From positions 1 to 61,002 of the forward strand of contig NZ_NFLJ01000014.1 of assembly GCF_002160865.1 (NCBI RefSeq): a stretch of DNA of 61,002 nt, in the 5' to 3' direction. Origin of the DNA: Massiliimicrobium timonense. GTDB lineage: Bacteria; Bacillota_I; Bacilli_A; Erysipelotrichales; Coprobacillaceae. The notes beneath the pieces were generated by a model, which was not told the origin of the DNA, ran no database searches, and saw only the letters and a program-made list of their open reading frames with translations. The translations under genes were made by a program, and so were the position numbers. This document shows, in pieces, positions 2,052-46,632 of this stretch (its first letter is position 1; each line of letters starts with the position of its first letter).

Positions 2052-2054
2052 CAG

Positions 2055-4839: not shown

Positions 4840-4856
4840 AATCATTTCTCCTTTCT

Positions 4857-5723: not shown

Positions 5724-5741
5724 ACTTTATACCTCCTTTTC

Positions 5742-8375: not shown

Positions 8376-8401
8376 TGCTATCACCTCCTAAAATAGTAAG
8401 A

Positions 8402-8743: not shown

Positions 8744-8757
8744 ATGCTATTGCTCCT

Positions 8758-9387
8758 TTACAATTCACCATGCTCAGGTGTGTGTTTTGTTTTTGGGGTT
8801 ATTTCCTTACTGGTACTTTTCTCTTTTACTTGTCCATCATCAAGAGGAATAACCATAATGCTTTTTCCTAATTTCATGAACATTTCGGGCTGATGAAACA
8901 TCTTTTCATATTTTTCCAATTGTTCTTTAGATAGCGAACAAAAACTATCTTCTGTTAATCCAACAACAAGAAATGGACCAACGTAGATATCATATACTTC
9001 TCCATCATTTGTTCTCATTGCTCGATTCGGTTCTAAACCAATAAGTTTTCCTTCTTCATTTAGAATGATTCCAACTTCTTCATCAAATGGATACGTTACC
9101 TCAATCATTCCTCCAACTGCATCTTTGAGTGCTTCATATTCATCTTCAAGTTCAATAATTTTTGGATATTTCCAAGGCTCTACTAACAACACACTCATCT
9201 TTTCAAGATTTAAGCTTCTTTCTGCTTCAATAAACATATCTGCACCAACAAAATCTTCACTGTCTAAAACATATTCACCATTTTTCCATCCTGTTTCTAC
9301 AATCTCTTGAGCTTCTTCTCTTGTGTCAGCTCTTACGGTTATAGTTCGTTCTAAAGTTTCTTTTATCTTTACATCATATTCTTTCAA
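8758..9387 (-). CDS. DpnD/PcfM-like domain fused to DUF3846
   Basis: A protein of 209 residues with two parts. Residues 1-45 (KEYDVKIKETLERTITVRAD and following) resemble the DpnD/PcfM domain, a small beta/alpha module common in conjugative elements. Residues about 62-175 resemble DUF3846, recognisable from MSVLLVEPWKYPKII, MIEVTYPFDEEVGII and EPNRAM. The tail is polar. The function is unknown; both domains recur in accessory blocks of ICEs and plasmids. The start is TTG at 9385-9387 with AAAGGAGGAG upstream. A strong terminator ends 27 bases upstream of the start, leaving almost no room for a promoter. Confidence 0.7.
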   Translation of the reverse strand: MKEYDVKIKETLERTITVRADTREEAQEIVETGWKNGEYVLDSEDFVGADMFIEAERSLNLEKMSVLLVEPWKYPKIIELEDEYEALKDAVGGMIEVTYPFDEEVGIILNEEGKLIGLEPNRAMRTNDGEVYDIYVGPFLVVGLTEDSFCSLSKEQLEKYEKMFHQPEMFMKLGKSIMVIPLDDGQVKEKSTSKEITPKTKHTPEHGEL

Positions 9388-9413
9388 GTTAGTTCTCCTC
9401 CTTTTTCGTACAT

Positions 9414-9485
9414 AAAAAAATTACTAGATAATCTTGGCTAACGTTCCATGTTTTTTTGTCTTTTTTTATGCCAATTTTCTAGTAA
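9414..9485 (-). terminator. Intrinsic terminator at the 3' end of parB
   Basis: A two-part stem (TTACTAGA 9421-9428 with TCTAGTAA 9478-9485, and TTGGC 9434-9438 with GCCAA 9470-9474) overlaps the last codons of parB. It is followed on the minus strand by seven T residues (9414-9420). It separates the repA-parA-parB segment from the transfer genes. Confidence 0.7.
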
Positions 9486-10364
9486 TTTGATAATCGTATC
9501 TTGCATCTGTTTAGGTGTATAAGATCTAGGAAAATATTTTCTTAATACTTCATTATTTATTGTTACCTTATCAAGCTCTTCTTTCTTAGTTTCATTCATC
9601 ACAGCACACATTGCTTCTAACGTACACTTTTTTTCTTGACTTAGTTTTTTTATTCTTTGAGCTTGTGATAACGAAGGTGTATTTTGAGAATAATCCATTG
9701 CTTCTAAAAAATTTTCTTGTTCTTCTTGCGTTAAATAAGATAATTCTACTGCTGGATTAAAAGCAATCTGTTTGTTATCAACCATATCTAATAACTTTGA
9801 ATTTAATTCAGTTAAACGCATATATCGTTGAACTGTACGAGCACTATCGCCAGTACCTACTGCTAGTTTTTGGTCTGCTCGCAACTTCGTGCCAACTTGG
9901 CACGAAGTTAAATCTGTTCGTTCACCTTGTCTTTTAATTGCATCATATTTCATTTTATAAGCAAATGCTCTTTCACTTGGTAAAATCGTTTCTCTTTGAA
10001 GATTCGAATCGACCATCAAGATAATGGCTGCATCATCTTCCATATCACGAACAATAACAGGCATTTTTTCTTTACCAGCAATCATAGAAGCATGATGTCT
10101 ACGGTGCCCTGCTATAAGTTCATATCCGCCCTCCTTACGAGGTCTAGCAATAGCTGGCGATAAAACTCCATATTCTGAAATGCTTTCTACTGTCTTTTGC
10201 ATCGCCTCATCATCAATCACTTTAAAAGGGTGATTCTTAAAAGGATATAATTCCGACAAAGGAATATCTTGCACCTTCTCCTGTTTAGCTTCAATTCGAC
10301 TTTCTTCAGTTGAAAAAATATCATCGTAACTGCTCAAGCTGACGTTTATGCTTTTTTTCGGCAT
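9438..10364 (-). CDS. parB: ParB/Spo0J-like partition protein of the ICE
   Basis: A protein of 308 residues. The ParB/Srx N-terminal domain occupies about 35-130, with IPLSELYPFKNHPF, the GHRRHHAS box and the NLQRE segment. A helix-turn-helix region at about 145-215 contains SARTVQRYMRLTEL. It should bind a centromere-like site and act with ParA to stabilise the excised, replicating ICE. The ATG overlaps parA by 44 bases and has an AAGGAGG site. A perfect 27-bp palindrome lies in the coding sequence at 9883-9909, in the variable stretch between the two domains. An intrinsic terminator overlaps the 3' end. Confidence 0.9.
   Translation of the reverse strand: MPKKSINVSLSSYDDIFSTEESRIEAKQEKVQDIPLSELYPFKNHPFKVIDDEAMQKTVESISEYGVLSPAIARPRKEGGYELIAGHRRHHASMIAGKEKMPVIVRDMEDDAAIILMVDSNLQRETILPSERAFAYKMKYDAIKRQGERTDLTSCQVGTKLRADQKLAVGTGDSARTVQRYMRLTELNSKLLDMVDNKQIAFNPAVELSYLTQEEQENFLEAMDYSQNTPSLSQAQRIKKLSQEKKCTLEAMCAVMNETKKEELDKVTINNEVLRKYFPRSYTPKQMQDTIIKLLENWHKKRQKNMER
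9883..9909. repeat. Perfect 27-bp palindrome inside parB
   Basis: Two 13-base arms (AACTTCGTGCCAA and TTGGCACGAAGTT) are separated by one base. They lie in the parB codons for TSCQVGTKLR. Arms of this length are very unlikely by chance. It could be a protein-binding site or an RNA hairpin in the parB message; neither is shown. Confidence 0.9.
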
Positions 10365-11148
10365 TCTCTAACACCTCCTTTGCAAGTATTCTATAAGCAT
10401 TTGCTACTTTACCATTTGGATCATGTGAAAAAATACTTTTTCCTACAGCACTCATTTCCTCAGCACGTACTGAACGAGGAATATCCGTTTTGTATACTTT
10501 CAACTTACTTCCATAAGCCTCTCGAATAAGATTACTTATATCTTTTGCATAATTGGTTCTAGGATCTACCATAGTTAAAAGTATTCCCTCAATCTTTAAT
10601 TTTGGATTTATTTGTCTACGCACTTTATTGATTGTTTGTAATAACTGCTCCAAACCTTTTGCAGATAAATATTGAGCTTGCACTGGTATCAAAACATTAT
10701 CAGCAGAAGCTAATGCATTGATAGTTAACATTCCTAAGCTTGGCATACAGTCTAATAATACATAATCATATTCTTTCTTAAAACTGTCTAAAACTTGCTT
10801 TAAAATAGTTTCTCTACTCATTGCATTTACCAGAGATACTTCCAATCCAGAAAGTTCAATATTTGCTGGAATAAAATCAATGCCTTCATCATGATGAATA
10901 ATTCCTTCGTGATATTTCAATTTTTCCTCTTGCATAACTTTTTCCATCAAGTCAGAGATAGATGGTTTAATATCATCAGGTCTTGGATAACCTAAACTAA
11001 TAGTTAAACTAGCTTGGGGATCAGTATCAACTAGCAAAACCTTTTTGCCAGCTTTGGCTAGTCCAACTCCCAAGTTCTCACAAGTAGTTGTTTTACCTGT
11101 TCCACCTTTTTGATTTACAACTGCAATTACAGTTGGTTTCGTAGCCAT
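10321..11148 (-). CDS. parA: ParA-type partition ATPase
   Basis: A protein of 275 residues in the ParA/Soj/MinD family. The deviant Walker A is NQKGGTGKTT at about residues 12-21, the Walker A' region is LLVDTDPQASLT, and Walker B is in YDYVLLDCMPSLG. The length and lack of an N-terminal DNA-binding extension fit the short chromosomal-type ParA that works with the ParB encoded by the overlapping next gene. An AGAGAGGAAG site precedes the ATG. It lies 20 bases downstream of repA. Together the three genes form a replication and partition module, consistent with ICEs that replicate as circles after excision. Confidence 0.93.
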   Translation of the reverse strand: MATKPTVIAVVNQKGGTGKTTTCENLGVGLAKAGKKVLLVDTDPQASLTISLGYPRPDDIKPSISDLMEKVMQEEKLKYHEGIIHHDEGIDFIPANIELSGLEVSLVNAMSRETILKQVLDSFKKEYDYVLLDCMPSLGMLTINALASADNVLIPVQAQYLSAKGLEQLLQTINKVRRQINPKLKIEGILLTMVDPRTNYAKDISNLIREAYGSKLKVYKTDIPRSVRAEEMSAVGKSIFSHDPNGKVANAYRILAKEVLENAEKKHKRQLEQLR

Positions 11149-11168
11149 TCTTTCACTTCCTCTCTTTT

Positions 11169-12044
11169 TTAATAATTTCCTTTCAAATCATGGTTTACCA
11201 AAGTCGTATAATAGCTATCAATTGTTTGAGTAGCATTGTATAAACTCGTTAACAGATATTGTTTGATGTTTCTAATTTTAGTCGTATTTTCTAATAGACA
11301 ATCAAGAACAAATTGAATATGTTCATATTCCAACTTCATAAATTTTCTTTTAACAACCTCTAATGATTTTTCTTCACCAGCAATACGAATTGTTTCTTTG
11401 TTAGAACTTAAAGTATCAGCGACCAACATAATGATTTCATCCACCATCTTTTTGTAATCATGATACACTTGAACCAAAGAAGCGTAATCTACTTGAGCTT
11501 TTACAAAATCAATATAATCAAATTCTGAATCATTTCTTTCGAGTTCGATTCTGTCATATTCCGAAGGAATGAAAGAATGATTAATATCATTTATATCAGT
11601 ATCACTTAAATAAGTATTAATTCCGTTTGATTTTGAAACTTCTTGAAGTTCATTTATCAAACCTCCAGAAGTTTGATTTTCATACTTCTTGAAGTTTGAT
11701 TTTTCTAAAAAGTTTTTAACAAAAATAATATTTGGTTTTCCTAATCCTTGTCTCTTTCTTTCAATCAAACTGATAGTTTCAAGTTCCTTTAAAAGACCAA
11801 CGCTTTTAGCCTTTGCACATCCAAGTGCCTCCATGATTTCCTCTATTGTAAAGATGATAAAAACTCTACCTTGTTCATCAAACCACTCATTTTTAGCTGA
11901 TAAACTCATACGATCTAAAAACAGTCCATATAATAGTTTTGCTTCAATTGATAACTTCTTAAATTTGGGATCAATAAATAAAACTTTTGGTATCCTATAA
12001 AAAGTAAATTGCTCTGACTGATGTCCATAAAAATAATCAAACAC
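11169..12044 (-). CDS. repA: RepA_N-type replication initiator
   Basis: A protein of 291 residues. The N-terminal 110 residues (FDYFYGHQSEQFTFYRIPK, LSIEAKLLYGLFLDRMSLS, FTIEEIMEALGCAKAK) match the RepA_N winged-helix domain of replication initiators in Firmicute plasmids and Tn1549-type ICEs. The C-terminal half is variable and probably host-specific. The reading frame begins at a GTG (12,042-12,044) about 11 bases from the GGAGG. A better-placed ATG 7 bases from the same site opens only a three-codon ORF (MRV-stop) that overlaps the GTG, so the real start is somewhat uncertain. Confidence 0.85.
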   Translation of the reverse strand: MFDYFYGHQSEQFTFYRIPKVLFIDPKFKKLSIEAKLLYGLFLDRMSLSAKNEWFDEQGRVFIIFTIEEIMEALGCAKAKSVGLLKELETISLIERKRQGLGKPNIIFVKNFLEKSNFKKYENQTSGGLINELQEVSKSNGINTYLSDTDINDINHSFIPSEYDRIELERNDSEFDYIDFVKAQVDYASLVQVYHDYKKMVDEIIMLVADTLSSNKETIRIAGEEKSLEVVKRKFMKLEYEHIQFVLDCLLENTTKIRNIKQYLLTSLYNATQTIDSYYTTLVNHDLKGNY

Positions 12045-32284: not shown

Positions 32285-32422
32285 ATGAGTCACAAAAAAT
32301 CTAAAAAAAGACAAAAACACAATGCTTACAAAGGATATAACCAAAATCAACAAGCCAGTTATAGTGGTGAAGATGGTTTAATGAGTGAAAAATACAAAGA
32401 AAACTCAAATGCTCAAGAATAA
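32285..32422 (+). CDS. Small basic-acidic protein, 45 residues, unknown
   Basis: The open frame begins with ATG at 32,285 behind AGAAAGGAG (5-6 bases spacing) and ends at TAA 32,420-32,422. The product begins MSHKKSKKRQKHNAYKGY, strongly basic, followed by a Gln/Asn-rich middle and an acidic C-terminal part (GEDGLMSEKYKENSN). There is no membrane segment. It lies divergent from murC, immediately upstream of the first LytTR locus, and is followed directly by a strong terminator. The strong ribosome-binding site and its own terminator support it as a real gene; no function can be read. Confidence 0.65.
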   Translation: MSHKKSKKRQKHNAYKGYNQNQQASYSGEDGLMSEKYKENSNAQE

Positions 32423-32466: not shown

Positions 32467-32472
32467 TATAAT
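32467..32472 (+). promoter_or_regulatory. -10 box of the first LytTR/split-kinase operon
   Basis: TATAAT 22 bases before the GTG start of the response regulator. The -35 region falls inside the preceding terminator and is poor. Confidence 0.4.
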
Positions 32473-32494
32473 AAAAACATGAGGAGTGATCACT

Positions 32495-33193
32495 GTGCAA
32501 AGTATAATTATTGTAGATGATATGAATGAACATATCCAATACATAAAAAATATCATTCAAGATATGTCCTATTCTTTTCGTATTCAAACTTTTCATAATA
32601 TTCAAGCATTTCAATCACAAATCCAGCAATTTGATGATGATGCCATTATCATCATGGATATTTTATTAGGACAAAATGATGGTATTGAACTGGCGAAACA
32701 GCTCAATCAATTACAACGCCATTTTCAAATTATTTTTGTGAGTAGTTATCTTGAAAAAGCAACCCTTGTTTATGATACAAAACATTGTTATTTTGTTTAT
32801 AAACCAGAAGCTACCCAAAGATTACCAATGGCTATTTTAAAAGCCATGCAAAATATTCAAAATGAAAAACGTGTGCTTGTGATTGATTTAAAAGATGGTA
32901 CAACATGTATTTTATTAAAAGATATTCTTTATATCGAAAGAATTCAGCGTTATTCTTATATCCATACACCTTATGAAGTCATCAAAACATCATTGAAAAT
33001 CAAAGACCTATTACAACAATTGACACTCCCTTTTATTCGTACGCATAATAGCTACATTATCAATGCTCAATATGTCAAAGAATTAAAAAGAATACATGTT
33101 ATTCTCCAAAATCAACAATCCATTCCAATCAGTCGAGCATATCAAGAACATCTAAAACAACAATTTCATCTCTTTTTAATGCAACAGCTTTAA
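32495..33193 (+). CDS. LytTR-family response regulator (locus 1)
   Basis: About 232 residues. The receiver domain (1-115) has IIIVDDM at the N-terminus, the phosphoacceptor Asp in IIIMDILLG (about residue 55), and VSSYLEKA with a late Lys. The LytTR DNA-binding domain (about 135-232) contains DILYIERIQRYSYIHT and RTHNSYIINAQYVKEL. AgrA-type regulators like this one control peptide signalling, bacteriocin or surface genes. The start is the GTG at 32,495 with GAGGAG 8 bases upstream; an earlier GTG lies within that site. It is followed one base later by the membrane partner gene, so the three genes form an operon. Confidence 0.93.
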   Translation: MQSIIIVDDMNEHIQYIKNIIQDMSYSFRIQTFHNIQAFQSQIQQFDDDAIIIMDILLGQNDGIELAKQLNQLQRHFQIIFVSSYLEKATLVYDTKHCYFVYKPEATQRLPMAILKAMQNIQNEKRVLVIDLKDGTTCILLKDILYIERIQRYSYIHTPYEVIKTSLKIKDLLQQLTLPFIRTHNSYIINAQYVKELKRIHVILQNQQSIPISRAYQEHLKQQFHLFLMQQL

Positions 33194-33194
33194 T

Positions 33195-34013
33195 ATGAGT
33201 TCACTTGATATTCTTCGTACATGTTCTTATGCTCTTAACTGGTTGCTTTATTTTTATCTTGTTCATCATATTTTTCCTAAAAAACTCAATTCTATGCATA
33301 TCATTCTTATTATTTGTATGACAATTATTGGGTCTTTGATTTCGTCTAATCTATTCTATTTAAATTTCATTTATAAAAACATTGTTTCATTAATCATCTT
33401 TATTTCTACTTGTTATATCATATATCATAAACCATTAAAACGTCTATTAATGATCTATATCTATAACTTTATTTTATCCATCATTGGAGAAGCATTGATT
33501 GCTCCTATATTCATTGATTCCAATCTTTCATTGTCCTCATGGTCCCTCGCTTTTACTATGCAAAACTTATTTTTCTTTATTGAAATTAAAATATTTCTTA
33601 TCTTTTATCACAAAAAGATTCACAATCTTTTAACAGAGCATTTTTCATACTTACTGATTATTTCTTTACTTATTTTATTTTCTGTCTTTACATGTATTTT
33701 TATGAATATGCATTATATTAAATATATCTCTCTTGCGCTGTCACAAATTAATATGATTATTTTCATTTCTTTTATTATCATGTTGATTCTTTTTGTTCTT
33801 TCTATCATTAAACTTCAAAAGATATATACTGAACTCAAAAATAAATGGCTTATTCAAAGCCTTTTAGATGAATACCAAAAACAATGTTTTGAAACAACCA
33901 AACATCAACAACAATTAGAATATCAGCGATTACGCCATGATATTATCAATTATATTGAAACTTATCAAAGGCTTTATAAAAAGGATGATTCATATGAAAA
34001 TATACAAAAATAA
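33195..34013 (+). CDS. Membrane sensor with phosphoacceptor motif but no ATPase (split kinase part 1, locus 1)
   Basis: A protein of 272 residues. Six or seven membrane helices fill residues about 7-206, as in AgrC-type sensors. A coiled coil (about 207-244) follows, then the motif RLRHDIINYIE, with a candidate phosphoacceptor His near residue 248. The protein stops about 24 residues later, so there is no catalytic GHKL domain. The gene overlaps the following ATPase gene by 20 bases and directly follows the response regulator. This is not an obvious frameshift: the next protein has its own membrane helices, and a second locus has the same split with the gene order reversed. The ligand is unknown. 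Confidence 0.82.
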   Translation: MSSLDILRTCSYALNWLLYFYLVHHIFPKKLNSMHIILIICMTIIGSLISSNLFYLNFIYKNIVSLIIFISTCYIIYHKPLKRLLMIYIYNFILSIIGEALIAPIFIDSNLSLSSWSLAFTMQNLFFFIEIKIFLIFYHKKIHNLLTEHFSYLLIISLLILFSVFTCIFMNMHYIKYISLALSQINMIIFISFIIMLILFVLSIIKLQKIYTELKNKWLIQSLLDEYQKQCFETTKHQQQLEYQRLRHDIINYIETYQRLYKKDDSYENIQK

Positions 34014-34830
34014 AAAATACATTATTCCTTTCTTTATCTTTAATGAATGTCTAATTATCATTATGATGCTTTCTTTACTCTTACAATCAACCTATTCCGT
34101 ATTTCTTTTTATCATGATTATCTTTTTCAATGTTGTTTCCTTTTATATCTATCTTAAAATATATACATATATCCAAGAAACAGCTTTAATGGATGCTCAA
34201 AAAATCCTTTATGAAAAACAATTTCAAATCCAACGTGAACATGAATCCATCCAAAAAGAAAATCACCGTTTCATGAAAAAAATATCCCAAGAAATTTTTC
34301 AACAACTCCAAAATCAATCCTTAGAAACCATTCCTCCAAAAGAAATGAGAAGTTTTGCTGAAAAACTCATGCACCAGCATACTAATCTCTATCAAAATCA
34401 TTATTGTGAAAATCAAATCATTGATGCCATATTGTACAATAAATCTATTATTGCAAGAGAATATGATATTCCCTTCCACATCCACGTTTATGTTCCTCAA
34501 CAGTTATCCATTGAACCGATTGATCTCATTTCTTTATATACCAATTTATTAGATAACGCTATTGAAGCATCACTCTTATTAGATAAAGAAAAAAGATTCA
34601 TTGAAATTCATTCTCATTGTTATAATGATTATCTGATCATTCAAATATCTAATCATTATCAACAATCATCATCACATTTTCTAACAACCAAAAAGAATAA
34701 ACAAGAACATGGATTAGGTTTACAAATCGTCCAACAAGTTCTCAATAAATATCATGGTATGATGGATATTCAATCTCATAATCAAACATTACAAATCAAC
34801 ATAACATTAAAAGCTATTCTCATTGAATAG
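33994..34830 (+). CDS. Two-helix membrane GHKL ATPase (split kinase part 2, locus 1)
   Basis: About 278 residues. Two membrane helices (about 10-60) are followed by a coiled-coil linker and a C-terminal GHKL ATPase domain (about 165-278). The N-box is YTNLLDNAIEAS (about 183-193) and the G-box is EHGLGLQIVQQ (about 237-247), typical of AgrC/LytS-like HATPase_c_5 domains. At the position where the RHDxxN motif would lie, it has only NHRFMKKISQE, so its own phosphoacceptor looks degenerate. It would have to phosphorylate its neighbour's RHD motif in trans; this is inferred. The ATG at 33,994 has AAGGA 8 bases upstream, inside the end of the preceding gene. Confidence 0.85.
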   Translation: MKIYKNKKYIIPFFIFNECLIIIMMLSLLLQSTYSVFLFIMIIFFNVVSFYIYLKIYTYIQETALMDAQKILYEKQFQIQREHESIQKENHRFMKKISQEIFQQLQNQSLETIPPKEMRSFAEKLMHQHTNLYQNHYCENQIIDAILYNKSIIAREYDIPFHIHVYVPQQLSIEPIDLISLYTNLLDNAIEASLLLDKEKRFIEIHSHCYNDYLIIQISNHYQQSSSHFLTTKKNKQEHGLGLQIVQQVLNKYHGMMDIQSHNQTLQINITLKAILIE

Positions 34831-36818: not shown

Positions 36819-38562
36819 ATTCTTTCACTCCTATTCCTAATTCTTCTAATTGTGCATCAGCAACAGGTGTTGGTGCTTTTGACATTGGGCAAGTCGCACT
36901 TGTATTTTTAGGGAAAGCAATAACATCTCTTAATGAATCACATCCACATAATAACATGGCGATACGATCTAATCCTAAAGCAAATCCCCCATGTGGTGGT
37001 GTTCCATATTGTAATCCTTCCACAAACCATCCAAATTGAGCATCAATTTGTTCTTGTGTAAATCCCAAAGCTTTAAATGCTCTTTCTTGAACATTTTGAT
37101 CATAAATTCTTTGTGATCCTCCACCTAATTCATAACCATTTAAAACAATATCATAAGCATCTGCCAGACAATGTTCTGGATCTGTTTCTAACTTATCCAA
37201 ATCTTCATCTTTTGGTTTGGTAAATGGATGATGTTTCGCATAATATCTTTGTGTTTCATCATCATATTCAAACATTGGAAAATCAACAACCCATAAGAAA
37301 TCAAAAGTATTTGGATCATATAATTTCAATTCTTTTCCTAAATAGTTACGAATAGCCGCTAATGAATCACAGACAACTTCATATTTTGCATCTCCTACAA
37401 ATAATAATAAATCACCTGCATGAGCATTCATCGCTGTTAATAATTTTTCTAATTGTTCTTCATTAAAGAATTTCGCAATCGGTCCTTGAACACCTTCATC
37501 ATTGACTTTAAGCCACGCTAAACCTTTTGCTTTATATGTTTTTGCCAGTTCCGTTAACTGATCAATCTTTTTACGTGAAAAATTCGCTGCTTCACCAACA
37601 ACATTGATTCCTTTGACATGTCCCCCAGCTTCTAAAGCATTTTTAAACACTGCAAAATCAACATCTTTGACAGTTTCATTCAAATTCACTAGTTCCAATC
37701 CAAAACGTGTATCGGGCTTATCAATTCCATATCTTTCCATCGCTTCATACCATGTGAAACGTCTTAAAGGCAATTCAATATCAATTCCTTTAACATCTTT
37801 CATTAATTTCTTAATCATGCCTTCACCAATTTCAAGAATCTGATCAGTTGACATAAAACTCATTTCTACGTCAACTTGAGTAAATTCAATCTGACGATCT
37901 GCACGTAAGTCTTCATCTCTAAAACAACGTGCAATCTGATAATACCTTTCAAATCCAGCAACCATTAATAATTGTTTAAATAATTGAGGTGATTGTGGTA
38001 AAGCATAGAATGATCCTTTATGAACACGTGATGGAACTAAGAAATCTCTGGCTCCTTCAGGTGTGGAACGATTTAAATAAGGTGTTTCAATATCCACAAA
38101 ATCCAAGTTATCTAAATACTCACGGATACTTCTGGTAATCTGATGTCTTGTCATGATATTTTTTTGCATAACTGGACGTCTTAAATCCAAATAACGGTAT
38201 TGCATTCTTGTTTCTTCTAAAGCATCTGTTTCATCTCCAATAATCATTGGAGTTAATTTGGCTGTATTAATAATTGAAAAATCAGAAGCTTGAATTTCAA
38301 TATCACCTGTAGGAATTTTAGGATTTTTTGATGCTCTTTCAATGACTGTTCCTTGAACAGATAAAATATATTCATTTTTGACTTCTTTTAATCTTTCTTC
38401 AAAAGACTCATCAAAAATCACTTGAGTAATCCCATAACGATCTCTTAAATCAATAAAAACCAATGCTCCCAGATTTCTTTTTTTCGCAACCCAACCAATC
38501 AATTCGACTTGTTGACCAACATTTTCGATTCTTAATTCCCCATTGTTATGTGTTCTATTCAT
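36796..38562 (-). CDS. aspS: Aspartyl-tRNA synthetase
   Basis: About 588 residues, bacterial type. The N-terminal OB-fold anticodon-binding domain (about 1-110) contains VELIGWVAKKRNLGALVFIDLRDR in part. Class II motif 2 is FRDEDLRADRQIEFTQ and motif 3 is GLDRIAMLL; the GAD insertion lies at about 285-400. It charges tRNA-Asp. With GatCAB present, a role in Asn-tRNA formation is possible but not decided here. The ATG at 38,560-38,562 is preferred, with AAGGAG 9 bases upstream and an 8-base overlap with hisS. It is the second gene of the T-box operon. Confidence 0.95.
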   Translation of the reverse strand: MNRTHNNGELRIENVGQQVELIGWVAKKRNLGALVFIDLRDRYGITQVIFDESFEERLKEVKNEYILSVQGTVIERASKNPKIPTGDIEIQASDFSIINTAKLTPMIIGDETDALEETRMQYRYLDLRRPVMQKNIMTRHQITRSIREYLDNLDFVDIETPYLNRSTPEGARDFLVPSRVHKGSFYALPQSPQLFKQLLMVAGFERYYQIARCFRDEDLRADRQIEFTQVDVEMSFMSTDQILEIGEGMIKKLMKDVKGIDIELPLRRFTWYEAMERYGIDKPDTRFGLELVNLNETVKDVDFAVFKNALEAGGHVKGINVVGEAANFSRKKIDQLTELAKTYKAKGLAWLKVNDEGVQGPIAKFFNEEQLEKLLTAMNAHAGDLLLFVGDAKYEVVCDSLAAIRNYLGKELKLYDPNTFDFLWVVDFPMFEYDDETQRYYAKHHPFTKPKDEDLDKLETDPEHCLADAYDIVLNGYELGGGSQRIYDQNVQERAFKALGFTQEQIDAQFGWFVEGLQYGTPPHGGFALGLDRIAMLLCGCDSLRDVIAFPKNTSATCPMSKAPTPVADAQLEELGIGVKEYESDKSE

Positions 38563-39835
38563 GATCATGATCTCCTTCATAATGATTTTCAATAAATTCA
38601 ACAATATTTTCTAATGGAACTTCCACTTGTTCTTTAGAATGATTACATTTCATATTCACGACTTCTTTTTTGACTTCTTCTTCCCCAATAATCATAGAAA
38701 AATGAGCACGATAACGATCAGCTGATTTAAACTGTCCTTTTAAACCACGATCACATTGATCCATATCACAAGTAAATCCATTAGCACGAAGCATTGTGAT
38801 AATCTGCATTGCTAAATCTTTAGCCTCACTACCTAAAGGCATAATATAGACATCTAATCCTTCATCTTCCTGTGGTTCATCACCCAATGCGATCATCAAT
38901 CTTTCCATTCCAAAAGCAAAACCTACACCAGGTGTCTGTGGTCCACCTAATTCTTCAACAAGTCCATTATAGCGACCACCCCCGCCAACTGTCGAACCAG
39001 CTCCTAATTTTGGATCATCAGAAATAATTTCAAAGACAGTATGTGAATAATAATCTAATCCTCTCACTAAGTTAGGATCAACAACGTAATCAATTTCCAA
39101 ATCATCCAATAAAGCACAAACTTTATCAAAATGTGCTCTGGCACTCTCACTTAAATAATCAATAGTTTGAGGTGCTGTTTTCATCATTGGATGATCTTTA
39201 TCCACTTTGCAATCTAAAATACGTAATGGATTTTTTTCATAACGCACCTGACAGTCATGACATAACTCATTTAAAACAGGTTGAAAATGATTTTGTAAAG
39301 CTTCACGATAAGCATCACGTGATTCCTGATCACCTAAAGAATTGATATGTAACTGAATATTTTTAAGTCCTAATGCTTCAACAACAGTCACTGCCATCAA
39401 CATACATTCCACATCAACATAAGGTGATTCTACCCCTAACATTTCTACACCAAATTGATGGAATTGTCTTTGTCTACCATTTTGTGGTCTTTCATAACGA
39501 AACATTGGACCCATATAATAAATCTTCTGTAATTTTTCTGGTAATCCATATAATTTATTTTCAACATAAGCTCTTACAATTCCTGCTGTTCCTTCAGGTC
39601 TTAATGTCATTGAACGTCCTTTTTTATCCTCAAATGTATACATCTCTTTAGAAACAACATCTGTTGTATCTCCCACTGCACGATTAAATAATTCCGTATG
39701 TTCAAAAATAGGTGTTCTCATCTCTTTTACATTATAATTGGCACAGATTGTTCTTAATAACTGTTCCAACTCCTGCCACTTTCCAGATTGAGCAGGTAAA
39801 ATATCTACTGTTCCTCTTGGTGCTTTATATGCCAT
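38555..39835 (-). CDS. hisS: Histidyl-tRNA synthetase
   Basis: Charges tRNA-His. 426 residues. Class II motif 1 region RTPIFEHTELF, motif 2 FRYERPQNGRQRQFHQFG, the HisA motif LVRGLDYYSHTVFE, motif 3 GVGFAFGMERLMIAL, and the C-terminal anticodon-binding domain (about 335-426) are all present. The start ATG has AAGGAGG upstream and directly follows the T-box terminator. hisS-aspS is a common Firmicute operon. Confidence 0.96.
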   Translation of the reverse strand: MAYKAPRGTVDILPAQSGKWQELEQLLRTICANYNVKEMRTPIFEHTELFNRAVGDTTDVVSKEMYTFEDKKGRSMTLRPEGTAGIVRAYVENKLYGLPEKLQKIYYMGPMFRYERPQNGRQRQFHQFGVEMLGVESPYVDVECMLMAVTVVEALGLKNIQLHINSLGDQESRDAYREALQNHFQPVLNELCHDCQVRYEKNPLRILDCKVDKDHPMMKTAPQTIDYLSESARAHFDKVCALLDDLEIDYVVDPNLVRGLDYYSHTVFEIISDDPKLGAGSTVGGGGRYNGLVEELGGPQTPGVGFAFGMERLMIALGDEPQEDEGLDVYIMPLGSEAKDLAMQIITMLRANGFTCDMDQCDRGLKGQFKSADRYRAHFSMIIGEEEVKKEVVNMKCNHSKEQVEVPLENIVEFIENHYEGDHDHE

Positions 39836-39851: not shown

Positions 39852-40050
39852 AAATAAAAAAACGCCCATCTAAGGACGTTATAACGCGGTACCACCTTAG
39901 TTCATACAAAAAGTATGCCCTCTCTGTCTTAACGCGACTGACGGTTATTTTCATAACTTCCTCCAAAGTGTCCCACAGCTTCCTCTATCTGTTTTCACCA
40001 CCCACAGACTCTCTACCAGATTATCACTATTTAATCTTCTTCAACGGATT
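39852..40050 (-). promoter_or_regulatory. T-box riboswitch of hisS-aspS-M24 (specifier reads GAC, Asp)
   Basis: The T-box motif GGTGGTACCGC lies at plus 39,886-39,896, and a terminator hairpin with seven T lies at about 39,854-39,880. Stem I has the AGAGAG and GGTGG elements. In the register shared by all three T-boxes here, the codon before ACTTTGGAG is GAC (plus 39,970-39,972), the Asp codon. A CAC (His) codon can be read two bases later, but that shift also occurs in the Tyr and Arg leaders. Confidence 0.92.
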
Positions 40051-40056
40051 GACATC

Positions 40057-40087: not shown

Positions 40088-40945
40088 TCAATCCTGATTT
40101 TCATTCAACTTTGTTTCAATATCACTTTGCCATTGTTGTAAATATTCATTGGCTTTTTGAATATCCTGCTGATAAAGTAAAGATAAAGTCAACATATGAT
40201 TTCTTTGATCATGTCTTATTTTTGATAAAACATCATTTCTTTTTCTTTGTTCCTGCATCAACAATTCAATCTTTTGATTTTGATATTCTATTGTCTTAAG
40301 ATATTTCTGATGTTCAAAACCTTGATCAATCATACGAAAAATCAGATAAAAAATAAAAATAACCATGCCATAAATTACTATATTCAAAACAAGACTTTCA
40401 AAACTACCTAAAATAGACAATAAAAAATATTCAATAAAAAAGAATACAACTGTCTTGTTATCAAAAAATATCACATTCATTTTTTGATAAAGAAGACAAG
40501 AAAAATAATAAATCAAAGCTAAAGAAATCATTTTATAAAACAATGAACTGATAAATAATTGTTGATTATTTAAGAAAAGAGAAACCAGATATAAATACAT
40601 ATCTTCAAATCCTATACGAATAATACCTGTTAATAAAATAAGCATTTGAAAAACAAAAGCACTTTTAAAATGTGCATCCATCAATCGTTGCATATAAAGC
40701 TGACGCATACCATAAATCAATAAAAGAGCAATCAACCCCAAAAGAGAAATCGTGAGTTCTTTTTCACCATAATAATAACTCATGTATGTTCCAACAAATG
40801 AAATCATCGTATATGGTAAATGGAAAAGAAGCGAAAGAATAAACATTTTAGAAAATGAATAACGATGAGTAAAAAGATTTTTTGTATAATAGACAAGACA
40901 AATTGAAAACACAAACCACATCACACATGAATAACCCATGATCAT
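40088..40945 (-). CDS. Membrane sensor with phosphoacceptor motif but no ATPase (split kinase part 1, locus 2)
   Basis: A protein of 285 residues. About six membrane helices fill residues 5-215, then a coiled coil (about 216-240) and the H-box KIRHDQRNHMLTLS, with the candidate phosphoacceptor His near residue 245. It ends about 40 residues later, after one more helix, with no GHKL domain. It has the same make-up as the locus 1 protein at 33,195-34,013. Here, however, the gene follows the ATPase gene instead of preceding it, overlapping it by 4 bases. Its 3' end abuts the hisS T-box promoter. The ligand is unknown. Confidence 0.82.
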   Translation of the reverse strand: MIMGYSCVMWFVFSICLVYYTKNLFTHRYSFSKMFILSLLFHLPYTMISFVGTYMSYYYGEKELTISLLGLIALLLIYGMRQLYMQRLMDAHFKSAFVFQMLILLTGIIRIGFEDMYLYLVSLFLNNQQLFISSLFYKMISLALIYYFSCLLYQKMNVIFFDNKTVVFFFIEYFLLSILGSFESLVLNIVIYGMVIFIFYLIFRMIDQGFEHQKYLKTIEYQNQKIELLMQEQRKRNDVLSKIRHDQRNHMLTLSLLYQQDIQKANEYLQQWQSDIETKLNENQD

Positions 40946-41685
40946 TGACTTTCACCTTCATATAAGAAAATTGTCACATCAAACCACCCATCTTCTTGTT
41001 TTAATGTCATATCCCCATGATATGCTGCCACAATATCACGAATAATTTTTAGACCATATCCATGTCCTGATTTCCTTTCAATGATTTGTTTTGGATCATA
41101 GCTGTTTTCTATTTGAACTTTTAAACAATGATATTTTTCTTCTATATGAAGCTTTATAAAAGGTCGTTGACATAATTTTGTCGCATTGATCGCATTATCA
41201 ATCAAATTAAACATTAAAGAAGATAAATCAATATCAGATAAAAAAGTTTTTGAAGAAACATGAATATCACTTTCTACTATAATATCTTGATTCTCTGGTA
41301 AATTCAGTTTATAGGATAATATGGTATTCATTATCATATTTTGTGAGTATTCATTTTGGTATTGATTAATGGTTGCTTCTAAGCCTTCTAAATGTAATGA
41401 ATGTGATTGTTTTGTATCGATATTTTTAAGCTGTTGGGATAATTGTTGATAATAGTGTATCTTTATGTCTTGAATGGTTGCATGTGATAATTGTTTTTCC
41501 TGCCAGAGTTCCTGTTGAATATGATAATAAAAGCGTTGATATAACTGTTGATAGTATTGTCCCAATAAATAGACAATCATTAAAAAAACAACACCAAAAA
41601 AGACACTGATAAAAGAAAACGCTCTTTTTAAAAAAATTATTGCTGTGACTTGCTTATTCTGCAAATATTCCATAACGATATTCAT
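40942..41685 (-). pseudogene. 3' part of the interrupted GHKL ATPase gene (locus 2), open frame entering from the IS
   Basis: An open frame of 247 codons. From codon 23 onward it is the 3' four-fifths of the split-kinase ATPase: one membrane helix (FSFISVFFGVVFLMIVYLLG), a coiled-coil linker, then the GHKL domain with N-box LMFNLIDNAINAT and G-box GHGYGLKIIRDI. The first 22 codons come from the insertion element and include the overlapping end of the transposase gene. The native N-terminus with the first membrane helix lies beyond the element, at 42,835-42,998. No RHD motif is seen. The frame is intact, so a shortened product might still be made from IS-driven transcripts with a weak start site. 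Confidence 0.85.
41612..41619. repeat. Target site duplication, left copy
   Basis: AAAGAAAA, identical to 42,835-42,842, directly outside the left terminal repeat. Eight bases is the usual length for IS1595 elements. Confidence 0.9.
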
Positions 41686-42834
41686 AATAAGCTTCTTTAA
41701 GAGATATTGGCATTGGTGTTGCCAATACAGATATATTCCTAAATAATGATGTTTCTACCAATAAATTCATAATCTTTTCTGGCATCTCATTTCGTTTGTA
41801 TCTGTACTTCATCTGTTTTCTTAGTATATTGAAGTTCAGATATCCCTGCAAATATCTCGTGCTTATGCCTTTTGTCTTTATAATCAGACCGGCTACCTCA
41901 GTCATCATTTCATTGATGACACCTAATGATTTACCATCTCTAGTCAGGTATCTCTTTTCTGTTGGTGAGGTCGGAACTTTGTTGTTAGTTGTTCCAAGAT
42001 GATTTGCAAGCTGCTGTATGCATGACTTTGAATCAGAAATGATTTCTTTAATATCGCCAAAATACATTTCATTTGATATATATTTTTCAAAAGATTCGCT
42101 TCCAAGTCCTGTAATGTTCATGATCATATGATCATTTTCATCAACAGCACATATCACACTGACTTTATGATGTGATATACCCCTAAATGCAGATTGTCCA
42201 CCCCTTTTTTTAGAATATCTTGGCATATTATGAGGCATTGTTCCTTTCAGGTTGATACTCAGATATTGAGTATCAACTTCAATTTCTCCTGAAAGGATCT
42301 GATTATTGATGATTTCAGTAGCAGCATGATAAAGCTTGTGACGCATGTAAAAACATGTCGTCGTACTGACACCAAGAAAATGTGCTTCATCTTCCAGTTT
42401 CATTTCAGAAATCTCCAGATCAACAAAAAGTATCCATTGCTCCATTGTAAGATGCGACCAACTGAAAAGTGTATGGGTTCTATCATTGAATGTTCTATGA
42501 CACTCTTTGCATAGATATCTCTGACGCTCATTAGAATCTTTTCCGTTTTTCTTGACATGTGTTGATCCACAGATAGGACAAACCTGATCAGATGAATCAG
42601 TGTTATTTAGATTATTATTCAATAATGAAAACAAATAATCTATATAAGATTTATCTTTAGTTTTTAAGAAATCAATAACTTGTTTTTCATTAATCATAAG
42701 TATCGCCAATCCTTCTATGAAAAGTATAGCATATATGAAAAATAGATAACTTCTAAAACAATGGATAAACACCTAAAAAACGGTGTTAAAATAAAAAAGT
42801 AATAATAGCAGCAACATTTTTATTAAAAAGAGCG
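41620..42834 (-). mobile_element. IS1595-family insertion sequence, complete, 1,215 bp
   Basis: It is bounded by 26-bp terminal inverted repeats (41,620-41,645 and 42,809-42,834) that match at 23 of 26 positions, beginning CGCTCTTTTTA. It is flanked by identical 8-bp duplications AAAGAAAA. It carries one transposase gene on the minus strand. It is inserted in a kinase ATPase gene. Confidence 0.93.
41654..42697 (-). CDS. IS1595-family transposase
   Basis: About 347 residues. The N-terminal zinc ribbon is CPICGSTHVKKNGK followed by CKECHRTF. A helix-turn-helix region follows (MKLEDEAHFLGVSTTT), then an ISXO2-like DDE domain with EIEVDTQYLSINLKG, KKRGGQSAFRGISHHK and EIISDSKSCIQQL. This is the IS1595 layout. 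The start is probably the ATG at 42,695-42,697 (MINEKQVIDFLK); the frame extends further upstream without support. The 3' end overlaps the start of the downstream kinase fragment by 32 bases. No stop or frameshift is seen, so the transposase is probably active. Confidence 0.9.
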   Translation of the reverse strand: MINEKQVIDFLKTKDKSYIDYLFSLLNNNLNNTDSSDQVCPICGSTHVKKNGKDSNERQRYLCKECHRTFNDRTHTLFSWSHLTMEQWILFVDLEISEMKLEDEAHFLGVSTTTCFYMRHKLYHAATEIINNQILSGEIEVDTQYLSINLKGTMPHNMPRYSKKRGGQSAFRGISHHKVSVICAVDENDHMIMNITGLGSESFEKYISNEMYFGDIKEIISDSKSCIQQLANHLGTTNNKVPTSPTEKRYLTRDGKSLGVINEMMTEVAGLIIKTKGISTRYLQGYLNFNILRKQMKYRYKRNEMPEKIMNLLVETSLFRNISVLATPMPISLKEAYYEYRYGIFAE

Positions 42835-42998
42835 AAAGAAAATATAAAAGTATAAAAACTAGGGTAATAAGTTTGATAAGAATAGTCTAAAATATATGTA
42901 AAAAAATAACTTATAGATAAAGCCAGAAAACAGACAAAACACATAAAGATAAAGTATCTGTTTATTTTTTTATTTTTAAATAAAATGACTCTTTTCAT
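42786..42998 (-). pseudogene. 5' fragment of the interrupted GHKL ATPase gene (locus 2)
   Basis: A 70-codon frame. Residues 1-54 are the native N-terminus of the disrupted kinase: basic start KRVILFKNKKINRYF, one membrane helix at about 16-37 and the start of a second. Residues 55-70 are read from the insertion element (ending NVAAIITFLF) before a stop. The ATG overlaps the response regulator stop by 4 bases. On its own it could only give a short membrane peptide. Confidence 0.85.
42835..42842. repeat. Target site duplication, right copy
   Basis: AAAGAAAA, the partner of 41,612-41,619, directly outside the right terminal repeat. Confidence 0.9.
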
Positions 42999-43687
42999 AA
43001 AAAAATCCTTTCTTTCAAGAGATGATGATACTTGCGACTCACAGGAATCTCTTTTCCATTGATTAACTCAATAGAGGTTCTTTTCATAGACAAGATATAC
43101 TTTTCATTGACAATATAGCTTTCATGTACTCTTAAAAAATGATGATTCAACCTTAACATTAAATCTGACAATTTTTCATGACTCGTATAAATATGGCCTT
43201 GATGATCTTCAATATAAGTAATTCTTAATTTTCTTTCTAAATATAAAATATGCGTCTGTTGTAAATAAAGGTTTTTATTTTTAGTATGAAGCATCAATTT
43301 TCTAGAAGCATAATAATCTAATATTTTTTCAACGAGAAGATCAATCTTTTGGGAAAAATCTTTCTTTTCAATATAGTAAAAAACAGAAGAATTAAAAATA
43401 TCTTTATAATAATCATCATATTGTGATATATAGACAATTTGGATTTCTGGATGTTTTTGATATAATTTTCTTGCAAAATCAAGAGTTGTTCCCTGTTGTG
43501 TACAAATATCCAAAATTAAAATATCAAATGTCATCATCTCTTGATATAAAAGAGCCTCTAAATCATGTTCATCATTGAATGATGTTATTTCAAAAATAAT
43601 TTGTGATTTTTTTAAAGCATTGAATAAAATTTGTAAAATATAGTCTAATTGTTCTTTTTGATCATCAAAAATTCCTATTTTCAACAT
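42995..43687 (-). CDS. LytTR-family response regulator (locus 2)
   Basis: A protein of 230 residues. The receiver domain has IGIFDDQ at the N-terminus and the phosphoacceptor Asp in ILILDICTQQG (about residue 56). The LytTR DNA-binding domain (about 130-230) contains HILYLERKLRITYIED and RVHESYIVNEKYILSM. It is an AgrA/LytR-like regulator paired with the split kinase downstream, whose gene it overlaps by 4 bases. The ATG has a GGTGAGAGGG site, and a good promoter lies at 43,708-43,736. Because the kinase ATPase gene is disrupted, its phosphorylation may be impaired in this strain. Confidence 0.93.
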   Translation of the reverse strand: MLKIGIFDDQKEQLDYILQILFNALKKSQIIFEITSFNDEHDLEALLYQEMMTFDILILDICTQQGTTLDFARKLYQKHPEIQIVYISQYDDYYKDIFNSSVFYYIEKKDFSQKIDLLVEKILDYYASRKLMLHTKNKNLYLQQTHILYLERKLRITYIEDHQGHIYTSHEKLSDLMLRLNHHFLRVHESYIVNEKYILSMKRTSIELINGKEIPVSRKYHHLLKERIFL

Positions 43688-43707
43688 ACCCTCTCACCTA
43701 ATGAACT

Positions 43708-43736
43708 ATTCTACTGATTTTTTCATTACATATCAA
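43708..43736 (-). promoter_or_regulatory. Promoter of the locus 2 operon
   Basis: TTGATA (plus 43,731-43,736), 17 bases, TAGAAT (plus 43,708-43,713) on the minus strand, about 20 bases before the response regulator start. Confidence 0.65.
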
Positions 43737-43784
43737 TTTAATGACATATTTGACAAATTTCATGTTATTTTTAGTATATGAGCA

Positions 43785-43824
43785 TAAAAAATAGGAATCA
43801 AGATTTTCACTTCTTGATTCCTAT
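43785..43824 (-). terminator. Strong intrinsic terminator in the locus 2 upstream region
   Basis: Perfect 12-bp stem ATAGGAATCAAG / CTTGATTCCTAT (43,791-43,802 and 43,813-43,824) with six T residues on the minus strand. It implies a minus-strand transcript arriving from the right, yet the nearest ORF ends almost 300 bases upstream. Confidence 0.85.
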
Positions 43825-44117
43825 CCATTATTTTTAAAGAAGAAATATTATCTTCAATGTGATTCATTTATATTCATTTTTGTAAATAACGATGACACTC
43901 TATTATCTATTAACTTATCTATATTTCTATGAATCAAAAACTATATCTATATAGATAATCTCATGAATAATGTTTCCATATTTTCGATAAAGCCATATCA
44001 CAATGCCTTTTTTACTTATTGCTTATTTTTACAAACAATCAACTTTCTCATTCACTCATTATGATGACACTTTATTATATCATGAACTTTTTTGATGAAG
44101 ACCTATCATTACCAGGT
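43825..44117 (-). other. AT-rich region, possible long 3' UTR or small RNA
   Basis: No credible ORF. An 18-of-21 matching direct repeat lies at 43,886-43,906 and 44,058-44,078 (core GATGACACT), and a 14-bp palindrome TATCTATATAGATA at 43,942-43,955. An extended -10 (TGATATAAT, minus strand, about 44,076-44,084) sits just before the second repeat, so a short RNA could start there and end at the 43,785 terminator. Confidence 0.35.
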
Positions 44118-44234
44118 CTAACGTATGTTAGGGGGTAGAAGATCTCTTTCTAAACGATACTCTTTTGGAAGAAGGAGATTTTCCATGAACCTAGGTCCTA
44201 AATATAAAGTTTTGATTTTTCTAGTTTCTTTCAT
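44118..44234 (-). CDS. 38-residue small protein, unknown
   Basis: ATG at 44,232-44,234 with a full-consensus AAAGGAGGTC ribosome-binding site 6-8 bases upstream and TAG at 44,118-44,120. The product begins MKETRKIKTLYLGPRF and ends DLLPPNIR. It is charged, has several Leu residues, and shows no signal peptide, membrane helix or Cys, so it does not look like an AgrD pheromone. A promoter-like TTTCAA-17-TATGAT pair lies at 44,277-44,305, and a small hairpin (AGACCT / AGGTCT) immediately follows the stop. It is isolated between rel and the locus 2 regulator. The function is unknown. Confidence 0.6.
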   Translation of the reverse strand: MKETRKIKTLYLGPRFMENLLLPKEYRLERDLLPPNIR

Positions 44235-44276
44235 CTTTAAGACCTCCTTTCATTTCCTTTCCTTTTCTTCGTCTAT

Positions 44277-44305
44277 ATCATAACACATTTTTTATAAAAT
44301 TGAAA
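44277..44305 (-). promoter_or_regulatory. Candidate promoter of the 38-codon gene
   Basis: TTTCAA (plus 44,300-44,305), 17 bases, TATGAT (plus 44,277-44,282), on the minus strand about 43 bases before the start codon. The -35 is weak. Confidence 0.4.
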
Positions 44306-44376
44306 GCCTTTTCATTTTCATATTATGAAAATATTATTTTCAATTTATCTTCTTTTTATCACTGCTTTTTTGATTT

Positions 44377-44410
44377 TAAAAAATCATAAATAGATACATC
44401 TATTTATGAT
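44377..44410 (-). terminator. Intrinsic terminator after rel
   Basis: Perfect AT-rich stem ATCATAAATAGAT with its complement (44,383-44,410), followed by six T residues on the minus strand. Confidence 0.7.
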
Positions 44411-44418
44411 TGAAAAAG

Positions 44419-46632
44419 TTAGTGAATAACTCTTGAAATACTATAAACACCTTGTATTTTATTTAAATTATCAATTGTCAATTGTAGAAGTTCAGCATTC
44501 TCTACAGAAAGTTTTAATTGAATTTGTGCTTCTGTATCAACGACACCGGCATTAATATTTAAAATATTAACCTTAACCTGTCCTAATACAGTAATAATAT
44601 CATTCAATAAATTAGGACGATCTAAACCTCTAATATCAATATCAACTTCAAAACGCTTTTGCATAATATTTGTATAATCCCAATAAACATCAATCAGACG
44701 TCCTTTTTCTACACCTTTTAGGTTAGGACAATCTGCACGATGAACTTTGATTCCTTGTCCTTTTGACACATACCCAATAATCTCATCACCGGGAATAGGA
44801 TTACAACATTTCGATAATTGAACCTTTAATCCATCCACACCTTTGACACTAATACCTAAACTGCTGCTTTTCTTTTGATTCTTTAAAGCATTATTGTTTT
44901 TCTTTAAAATCTTTGAAAGATTATCAAAGAAACCAGTTTTTGATGGTAAGACTTTATCTATGAGCGTGGCAGCTGTAGCCTGTTTTTTCCCAATCACTAA
45001 CATTAAATCATCAAAATTTCTAGCTCCAAAAGAACCAAAATATGATTTATAAGTTTCTGGATCAAGAAATTTCTTTTCATCTAAATTACGTTTACGAATT
45101 TCTTCTTTTAAAAGCTTCTTTCCTTCTTCTATCGCTTCTTTTTGTGTTTCTGCATCTTTTTTAGAAATATATTGTCTAATTTTATTTCTGGCTCCGGCCG
45201 TTCTAACAAATTTTAACCAGTCTTCACTCGGTCCAGAATTTTTATTCGTTTTGATTTCACAGACATCACCTGTTTTCAGTTTGGTATTGATAGGGACCAT
45301 GACATTATTAACGATTGCCCCTACCGCATGGTGACCGACTTCGGTATGAATACGATAGGCAAAATCAATAGGCGTTGCCCCATTAGGAAGTTCTACAATT
45401 TTTCCTTGTGGTGTCATAACATAGACATTAGCTTCAAAGATATCACGTTTTAATGAGTCATAATATTCTTTAGCGTCACCATCTTTAATTTCATCACTTA
45501 AAGTAATGAAATCGCCCAGCCATTGTAATTTATCAACAATATCTTTTTGTTCTTGTCTTGATGAATAATCTTTTCCTTCTTTGTATCGCCAATGAGAAGC
45601 CACTCCACGTTCTGCCAGTTCGTCCATTTCTTCAGTACGAATCTGTATTTCAAAAATATGTCCATCCTCACCGATAACAGCTGTGTGCAAAGATTGATAC
45701 ATATTAGGCTTAGGCATAGCAATATAATCTTTAAAACGACCCGGTAAAGGACGAAAATGATCATGAATAATACCTAAGACTTCATAACATTTCATTTTAT
45801 CTTTTAAGATAATACGTAAAGCATTTAAATCATAAAGTTCATCAAAACGTTTATGTTTAATAACCATTTTTTTATAAATACTATAAATATGTTTTGCTCT
45901 ACCTTTAATACGATAATCAATATGATTTTCATCCAGTAATTTTTCTACGGATTTCATCATTTTTTCAACAGATTCTTTTCTTTCACTACGTTTTTGTTCT
46001 AATAGCTCAGAGATTTCAAGATAAGCTTTTGGATCTAAATAATGCAAACAAAGGTCTTCCAGTTCAATACGAATATCATTAATACCTAAACGATGTGCAA
46101 TTGGTGCATAAACTTCCAATGTTTCCCTAGAAATGCGCTGTTGTTTAGCAGGAGGCATATACTGTAATGTACGCATATTATGCAAACGATCTGCCAATTT
46201 AATCAAGATTACGCGTATATCTTTTGCCATCGCAATATAAATCTTACGATGATTTTCAGCATAAACATCAGCTTCATCTTTAAATGGCATTTTATTGATT
46301 TTCGTTACACCTTCAACAAGACTGGTAATTTCTTCTCCAAAACGTTCGACCATTTCTTCACGAGGGACATCACAGTCTTCCATGACATCATGTAAAAGTC
46401 CTGCCGCAATAGTTGTTGGTCCGGTCTGTAAAGTCGTCAGAATGTATGCTACCCAGATCAAATGAATCGTATAAGGTTCACCACTTTTACGTTTTTGTCC
46501 TTCATGTTTTACCATAATAAAATCATAAGCTTTTTGAATTAAATCAATACTTTCTTTTTTGGTAATGTAAGTTGAACAACTTTCCAAGACATCATCAAAT
46601 GTCACTTGATCATGTGCTCCTTTATATTTCAT
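44419..46632 (-). CDS. rel: Bifunctional (p)ppGpp synthetase/hydrolase Rel
   Basis: A protein of 737 residues with full RelA/SpoT layout. The HD hydrolase domain has HDVMEDCD (about 81-88). The synthetase domain has YDLNALRIILKD, with YQSLHTAVIGEDG later. The TGS domain has VYVMTPQGKIVELPNGATPIDFAY (about 395-455). A helical/zinc-finger-type region has KCCNPIPGDEI, and an ACT domain closes the C-terminus. It makes and degrades the stringent-response alarmone. It is the last gene of recJ-apt-rel, the order seen in Bacillus, although a terminator-like hairpin lies between apt and rel. Confidence 0.96.
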   Translation of the reverse strand: MKYKGAHDQVTFDDVLESCSTYITKKESIDLIQKAYDFIMVKHEGQKRKSGEPYTIHLIWVAYILTTLQTGPTTIAAGLLHDVMEDCDVPREEMVERFGEEITSLVEGVTKINKMPFKDEADVYAENHRKIYIAMAKDIRVILIKLADRLHNMRTLQYMPPAKQQRISRETLEVYAPIAHRLGINDIRIELEDLCLHYLDPKAYLEISELLEQKRSERKESVEKMMKSVEKLLDENHIDYRIKGRAKHIYSIYKKMVIKHKRFDELYDLNALRIILKDKMKCYEVLGIIHDHFRPLPGRFKDYIAMPKPNMYQSLHTAVIGEDGHIFEIQIRTEEMDELAERGVASHWRYKEGKDYSSRQEQKDIVDKLQWLGDFITLSDEIKDGDAKEYYDSLKRDIFEANVYVMTPQGKIVELPNGATPIDFAYRIHTEVGHHAVGAIVNNVMVPINTKLKTGDVCEIKTNKNSGPSEDWLKFVRTAGARNKIRQYISKKDAETQKEAIEEGKKLLKEEIRKRNLDEKKFLDPETYKSYFGSFGARNFDDLMLVIGKKQATAATLIDKVLPSKTGFFDNLSKILKKNNNALKNQKKSSSLGISVKGVDGLKVQLSKCCNPIPGDEIIGYVSKGQGIKVHRADCPNLKGVEKGRLIDVYWDYTNIMQKRFEVDIDIRGLDRPNLLNDIITVLGQVKVNILNINAGVVDTEAQIQLKLSVENAELLQLTIDNLNKIQGVYSISRVIH

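Follow-up and report, generated by a model that had tools for sequence, protein, structure and literature searches.

A probable AgrC-type histidine kinase divided between two membrane proteins in LytTR operons of Massiliimicrobium timonense and its relatives

A histidine kinase is almost always read as one chain. AgrC of Staphylococcus aureus and the LytTR-partnered single-chain kinases of the HPK10 type combine a polytopic sensor, an H-box of the form HD..N and a GHKL ATPase domain (HATPase_c_5) in one polypeptide, with a LytTR gene in the operon. AgrC dimers composed of one His-dead and one ATPase-dead chain can reportedly work as asymmetric dimers, a result attributed to George Cisar et al. 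2009. In Mycobacterium tuberculosis two incomplete kinases, Rv0600c and Rv0601c, are described as jointly making one; they are of a conventional, non-AgrC type with an OmpR-type partner, and form one pair rather than arrays. Both cooperate with TcrA (PMC9274095). CheA3 and CheA4 of Rhodobacter sphaeroides, in which the phosphoacceptor His and the catalytic domain likewise reside on two proteins, constitute a split kinase which works only as a complex and has been modelled to give ultrasensitivity (PMC3591291). Unlike the proteins considered here they are soluble, of CheA type with an unrelated set of domains (P1-P5), and belong to chemoreceptor clusters, with no membrane sensor and with CheY in place of a LytTR regulator (PMC3591291). 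Hik36/Hik43 (PilL-N/PilL-C) of Synechocystis is a kinase on two genes whose products interact by two-hybrid, but it is of CheA/HPt type, its genes are far apart and it has no polytopic sensor (PMC7656254). None of these three systems is an AgrC-type membrane kinase and none has several sensors per ATPase. The literature searched, which took in only a minority of subscription papers, contained no account of a split AgrC-type kinase whose single ATPase serves many sensors.

The stretch of DNA analysed, referred to here as the window, comprises 61,002 nucleotides of Massiliimicrobium timonense (contig NZ_NFLJ01000014.1). A compact operon on its forward strand, locus 1 (32486-34830), has the gene order LytTR, sensor, ATPase:

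32486-33193, + strand: LytTR-type response regulator of locus 1, 235 aa (Pfam Response_reg 1e-13, LytTR 3e-19)
33195-34013, + strand: sensor/phosphoacceptor subunit of locus 1, 272 aa, polytopic (7-helix), QRLRHDIINYIET; no CA domain
33927-33950, + strand: H-box of the locus 1 sensor, RLRHDIIN, with His248, Asp249 and Asn252
33994-34830, + strand: ATPase subunit of locus 1, 278 aa from ATG 33994 (Pfam HATPase_c_5 3e-24)
34510-34809, + strand: GHKL ATPase domain of locus 1, with N box NLLDNAIEA and G box HGLGL

The sensor terminates 24 residues past His248 of the motif RLRHDIINY, and the Pfam scan matched no domain in it. Automatic annotation has no family for such sensors, and would name the ATPase by its GHKL domain alone. 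The ATPase subunit has two N-terminal membrane helices, a long helix, a DHp-like hairpin without His (Gln99) and a GHKL domain. The reading frames and motifs are as given in a preliminary description of this DNA, which had recognized a LytTR regulator, an H-box sensor lacking an ATPase and a two-helix GHKL protein lacking an RHD motif. The ATPase start at 33937 in the list of open reading frames was rejected as too early in favour of ATG 33994, which is preceded by a Shine-Dalgarno-like AAAGGA; the sensor and ATPase genes overlap by 20 nt in different frames. Relative to the nearest species, dN/dS is 0.21 for the sensor, 0.07 for the ATPase and 0.11 for the regulator (ortholog in G001); the locus 1 system is intact and under purifying selection. 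Directly 5' of the operon a small basic protein (MSHKKSKKRQKHNAYKGYNQNQ...) is encoded at 32285-32422 (+), followed by a terminator-like hairpin and then a TATAAT-like -10 element which may be the operon promoter.

Locus 1 shares with AgrC-like (HPK10-type) kinases the polytopic sensor with its H-box, a GHKL domain of AgrC-like fold and the LytTR partner. It departs from them in consisting of two chains, encoded by two genes in different frames with separate starts, and in an ATPase chain from which the His has been lost and which has two membrane helices of its own; the family also includes cases of several sensors to one ATPase. As in other split histidine kinases, the phosphoacceptor His and the catalytic domain are on separate polypeptides, each without the other. 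The CheA-family domains (P1/Hpt, P3, P5/CheW-like) are missing from the Pfam families listed: no Hpt, H-kinase_dim or CheW domain is among those given for the window proteins, 16 sensors and 17 ATPases.

Gene structure, conservation, complementary domain loss, co-occurrence, helix spacing and the AgrC-like fold of the ATPase subunit make it quite probable that locus 1 encodes a heteromeric, AgrC-type, LytTR-partnered histidine kinase on two membrane proteins, with the sensor His phosphorylated in trans by the ATPase subunit. As to complex formation, stoichiometry, trans-phosphorylation and the direction of signalling, we infer the following. The sensor subunit, comprising the polytopic sensor, a signalling helix and the H-box (His248-Asp249-x-x-Asn252) with no ATPase, would receive the signal. 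The ATPase subunit would be anchored by its own two membrane helices and contribute a matching signalling helix, the His-less DHp-like hairpin and an intact GHKL domain. The two would most likely form a parallel hetero-complex, in the simplest case a heterodimer, with helices in register like the two chains of an AgrC dimer. On a signal the GHKL domain would phosphorylate the sensor His in trans, and the phosphate would then pass from this His to the LytTR regulator of the same operon. If true, this would be an asymmetric AgrC-type kinase in which sensing, phosphoacceptance and ATP hydrolysis are separately mutable, and it would bear on how a signal passes across a kinase dimer.

The same split occurs a second time in the window, on the reverse strand at locus 2 (40088-43687), with the gene order LytTR, ATPase, sensor:

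42995-43687, - strand: LytTR-type response regulator of locus 2, 230 aa (Pfam LytTR 1.7e-13)
42835-42997, - strand: 5' part of the locus 2 ATPase gene, up to the insertion sequence
41620-42834, - strand: IS1595-type insertion sequence, 1,215 bp (NCBIfam transpos_IS1595 5e-20), interrupting the ATPase gene
41654-42772: transposase open reading frame of the IS1595-type element
40942-41619, - strand: 3' part of the locus 2 ATPase gene, with the GHKL domain (HATPase_c_5 2e-19)
40088-40945, - strand: sensor/phosphoacceptor subunit of locus 2, 285 aa, SKIRHDQRNHML, extending 40 aa past the His

The preliminary description was right that a second locus with the split in another gene order exists, but it overlooked the interruption of the ATPase gene. 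The element is flanked by an 8-bp target duplication, TTTTCTTT, and has imperfect terminal repeats (25/32 identical); with it removed, the empty site gives a 277-aa frame, close to the locus 1 protein in length. A congener (G004) has a frameshift in its copy of this ATPase gene, and system 2 is therefore decaying in the genus; insertion in one species and decay in the other suggest its repeated loss. The roughly 700 bp preceding locus 2 (43700-44420), most of it non-coding, could be a regulatory region, and contains a possible 38-codon open reading frame (MKETRKIKTLYLGPRF...) at 44120-44260 (-). Directly after locus 2 lies the histidyl-tRNA synthetase gene (38555-39835) with an upstream T-box leader at 39869-40053 (-) (Rfam RF00230, 99.4 bits).

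Such decay, together with the 20-nt overlap in different frames at locus 1, would fit a frameshift, an assembly error or a decayed AgrC gene, with one chain misread as two. We regard this explanation as exceedingly improbable, in agreement with the preliminary description. The split is found with separate starts in 13 genera and some copies are only 23-35% identical, which therefore excludes a frame error at locus 1. The ATPase chain begins with two membrane helices of its own, at a point where a simple AgrC chain has none. Furthermore, the gene order varies among loci, with either sensor or ATPase first, and both genes are under purifying selection. One locus in another genus (G035) has the order LytTR, sensor, ATPase and the same split, at 23% and 35% identity.

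Among about 315 genomes of the order, the split kinase is present at about 25 loci in 21 genomes, spread over 13 genera and both sampled families. Almost every split locus examined has a LytTR gene beside it, usually within one operon. Stand-alone sensors occur in 21 of these genomes and 20 of the 21 also have a split ATPase, cut by a contig edge in one case and containing an in-frame stop in another; the co-occurring pairs which the preliminary description had suggested looking for are thus found. G004, with its decayed copy, is alone in having a sensor but lacking an intact ATPase, and none of the about 315 genomes contains a split ATPase but no sensor. About 10.5 kb separate sensor and ATPase in G600, which counts against a heteromeric kinase; a 2,316-aa open reading frame between the two genes (L099 5694-12644, -) may be an insertion separating a former operon. 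A conserved target or peptide gene beside the loci did not turn up: Pfam on ten neighbour genes revealed no AgrB and no common gene. Outside the order, searches with the split ATPase (E 1e-38 to 1e-40; phylum, 392 genomes; class, 296 genomes) and with the sensor (314 genomes) found no split ATPase and no stand-alone sensor, respectively; an independently evolved split would escape such searches. Split ATPases sit at three places on the tree, which has long branches; a tree constrained to group them as a single clade is worse by 10.4 log units (AU p 0.078, or 0.009 without the very divergent locus 2 row).

The sensors form a well-separated group. A profile of 36 sensors, run against the about 315 genomes, gave 44 matches of 113-222 bits, all of them stand-alone reading frames of 237-325 aa. 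Beyond a gap, the next tier reached at most 72.6 bits and comprised AgrC-like single chains, mostly of 400-500 aa, along with fragments of stand-alone sensors at contig ends. The AgrC-like chains align to the whole sensor profile with their N-terminal half. The sensors are therefore homologous to the N-terminal half of AgrC-like kinases, and have no close homologue with an ATPase domain in frame. Sensor homologues with a GHKL domain in the same frame, named in the preliminary description as evidence that would count against a split, were absent above 73 bits in the about 315 genomes. His-Asp is present in 44/44 complete stand-alone sensors and Asn at His+4 in 43/44, in a set partly collected with an H-box pattern, all 44 of which were found again by profile alone. 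The C-terminus lies 9-46 residues past the His in all 44, as against 177-191 in single-chain kinases. Pfam reported PF14689, the SpoOB-type DHp domain, in 8 of 16 sensors and HATPase_c_5 in none of the 16.

The ATPase subunits show the reciprocal loss. HATPase_c_5 was found in all 17 ATPase subunits scanned, and PF14689 is absent among the families listed for them. Residues N184, D187, N188, N220, H239, G240 and G242, among them those of the N and G boxes, are invariant in 17 split ATPases. Since the C-termini of sensors are prone to pair with the N-termini of ATPases in an alignment, several alignments were made. The column which holds the phosphoacceptor His in 14/14 single-chain kinases has His in 1/18 split ATPases, the remaining 17 having N, K, Q, E, D or L (Gln99 at locus 1). 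The single exception, L071, retains HD at this position (IKHDVIEQ). In 316 genomes of the order the ATPase profile scores 160-325 bits against short reading frames, mostly of 270-340 aa, and below about 160 bits against single-chain kinases. Four reading frames of about 611-632 aa with strong ATPase-profile scores were considered as a natural fusion (Rosetta stone) of the two subunits, and were rejected as single-chain kinases with a large extracytoplasmic region.

The HD retained in L071 weighs against a heteromeric kinase, and single-chain kinases are present in the genome of the window. Both would fit an alternative in which the two proteins function independently, the sensor as a membrane protein for regulation or scavenging, the GHKL protein without it, the regulator being phosphorylated, for example, via another residue or by way of another kinase's His. 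This appears improbable in view of the near-perfect co-occurrence and co-operonic layout, the reciprocal loss of His and ATPase domain, the equal helix spacing described below, and the invariance of HD and near-invariance of Asn in the sensors.

The AlphaFold2 model of the locus 1 ATPase subunit (pLDDT 81.7) predicts one membrane helix, then another that continues as a rod of 76 residues, a short helix leading back and the GHKL domain, with a hairpin formed by helices 32-107 and 115-130. Its best PDB matches in Foldseek are the AgrC DHp-CA structures 6e52 and 6e95 (E 1e-9, 235-240 columns), with 4bxi also matched; for the ATPase half of the L060 locus, which has four sensors, AgrC DHp-CA is likewise the best match (Z 17). 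By a hydropathy estimate, the His or the column corresponding to it lies a median 37 residues past the final membrane helix in sensors, 38 in ATPases and 36.5 in single chains. Such equal spacing is what an in-register parallel pair of subunits needs. Against the heteromeric reading, a joint AlphaFold2 model of the L060 sensor and ATPase, read through a TAA stop, gave separate folds without an interface (pLDDT 74), the interface region being unreliable, with residues 257-289 around the H-box below 50. The short sensor tails after the His also tell against it. Many sensors possess only the first DHp helix, so that the bundle would be unlike a canonical four-helix DHp, and maybe three-helical or 2:2. 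For the latter, a sensor homodimer would dock on an ATPase homodimer, the DHp hairpin of the ATPase forming a stable four-helix core with the sensor helices outside. Sensors with only 9-15 residues after the His would be unable to form a DHp hairpin, and the ATPase model shows a predicted hairpin of its own; the equal membrane-to-His spacing in both subunits instead favours side-by-side pairing, though not decisively, and we consider the 2:2 form rather unlikely.

In the HDxxN/HExxT H-boxes of histidine kinases, the His+4 position serves the phosphatase reaction. The presence of Asn there in 43/44 sensors is consistent with a further possibility, in which the sensor's main role towards the regulator is that of a phosphatase or phosphate sink, the ATPase charging it only when bound, so that kinase and phosphatase activities are separate. 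CheA3/CheA4 is a precedent, such a separation having been proposed there (PMC3591291). We view this role as rather doubtful; it would add to the heteromeric-kinase explanation rather than replace it.

A feature of the family overlooked in the preliminary description is the multi-sensor array with one common ATPase. In 10 of about 25 loci a single ATPase gene is accompanied by 2-4 sensor genes: four in G010 and G647 and probably four in G162, three each in G052, G060, G081 and G089, and two each in G035, G107 and G161. Sensors of one array have diverged more in their membrane parts (mean 34% identity) than in the helix that surrounds the His. At 25-35% membrane identity, helix identity is 46% within arrays (14 pairs) as against 22% between loci (242 pairs) and only 21% between two loci within the same genome. 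All 7/7 testable arrays show the excess (sign test 0.008), as would be expected if their sensors had a partner in common. Recent duplication or gene conversion adds to the likeness of certain pairs, such as those of G010 with 95% third-position identity; in others, such as those of G060 with 52%, it does not. On a plain reading of these sequences, the sensors of one array would face one common partner.

In these relatives one ATPase subunit probably serves 2-4 sensors feeding one regulator. More tentatively, the kinase may be modular: one membrane ATPase would be the shared hub on which up to four interchangeable sensor/phosphoacceptor subunits per operon converge, all acting on one LytTR regulator. 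Sensors would be rivals for the ATPase, and those left unbound may dephosphorylate the regulator; the operon would in this way integrate several signals and may switch sharply. Arrays of one ATPase and many sensors would then be a natural case, among common gut bacteria, of signal integration at the kinase, not the regulator; they might also serve synthetic biology as a modular part.

Two minor observations were made in passing. At L057 (2393-5970) a GHKL kinase gene (249 aa, FRHD) is followed by three tandem genes for paralogous membrane proteins of about 406 aa without an HD box, the third cut by the contig end; this is perhaps a different multi-sensor arrangement. In the window itself, a run of conjugation- or plasmid-type genes at 327-12044 (-), recognized by inspection, encodes an NlpC-like wall hydrolase, VirB4-like and VirD4-like ATPases, ParA, ParB and a replication-initiator-like protein. 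It ends where ordinary chromosomal genes begin (12160), and looks like an integrated mobile element.
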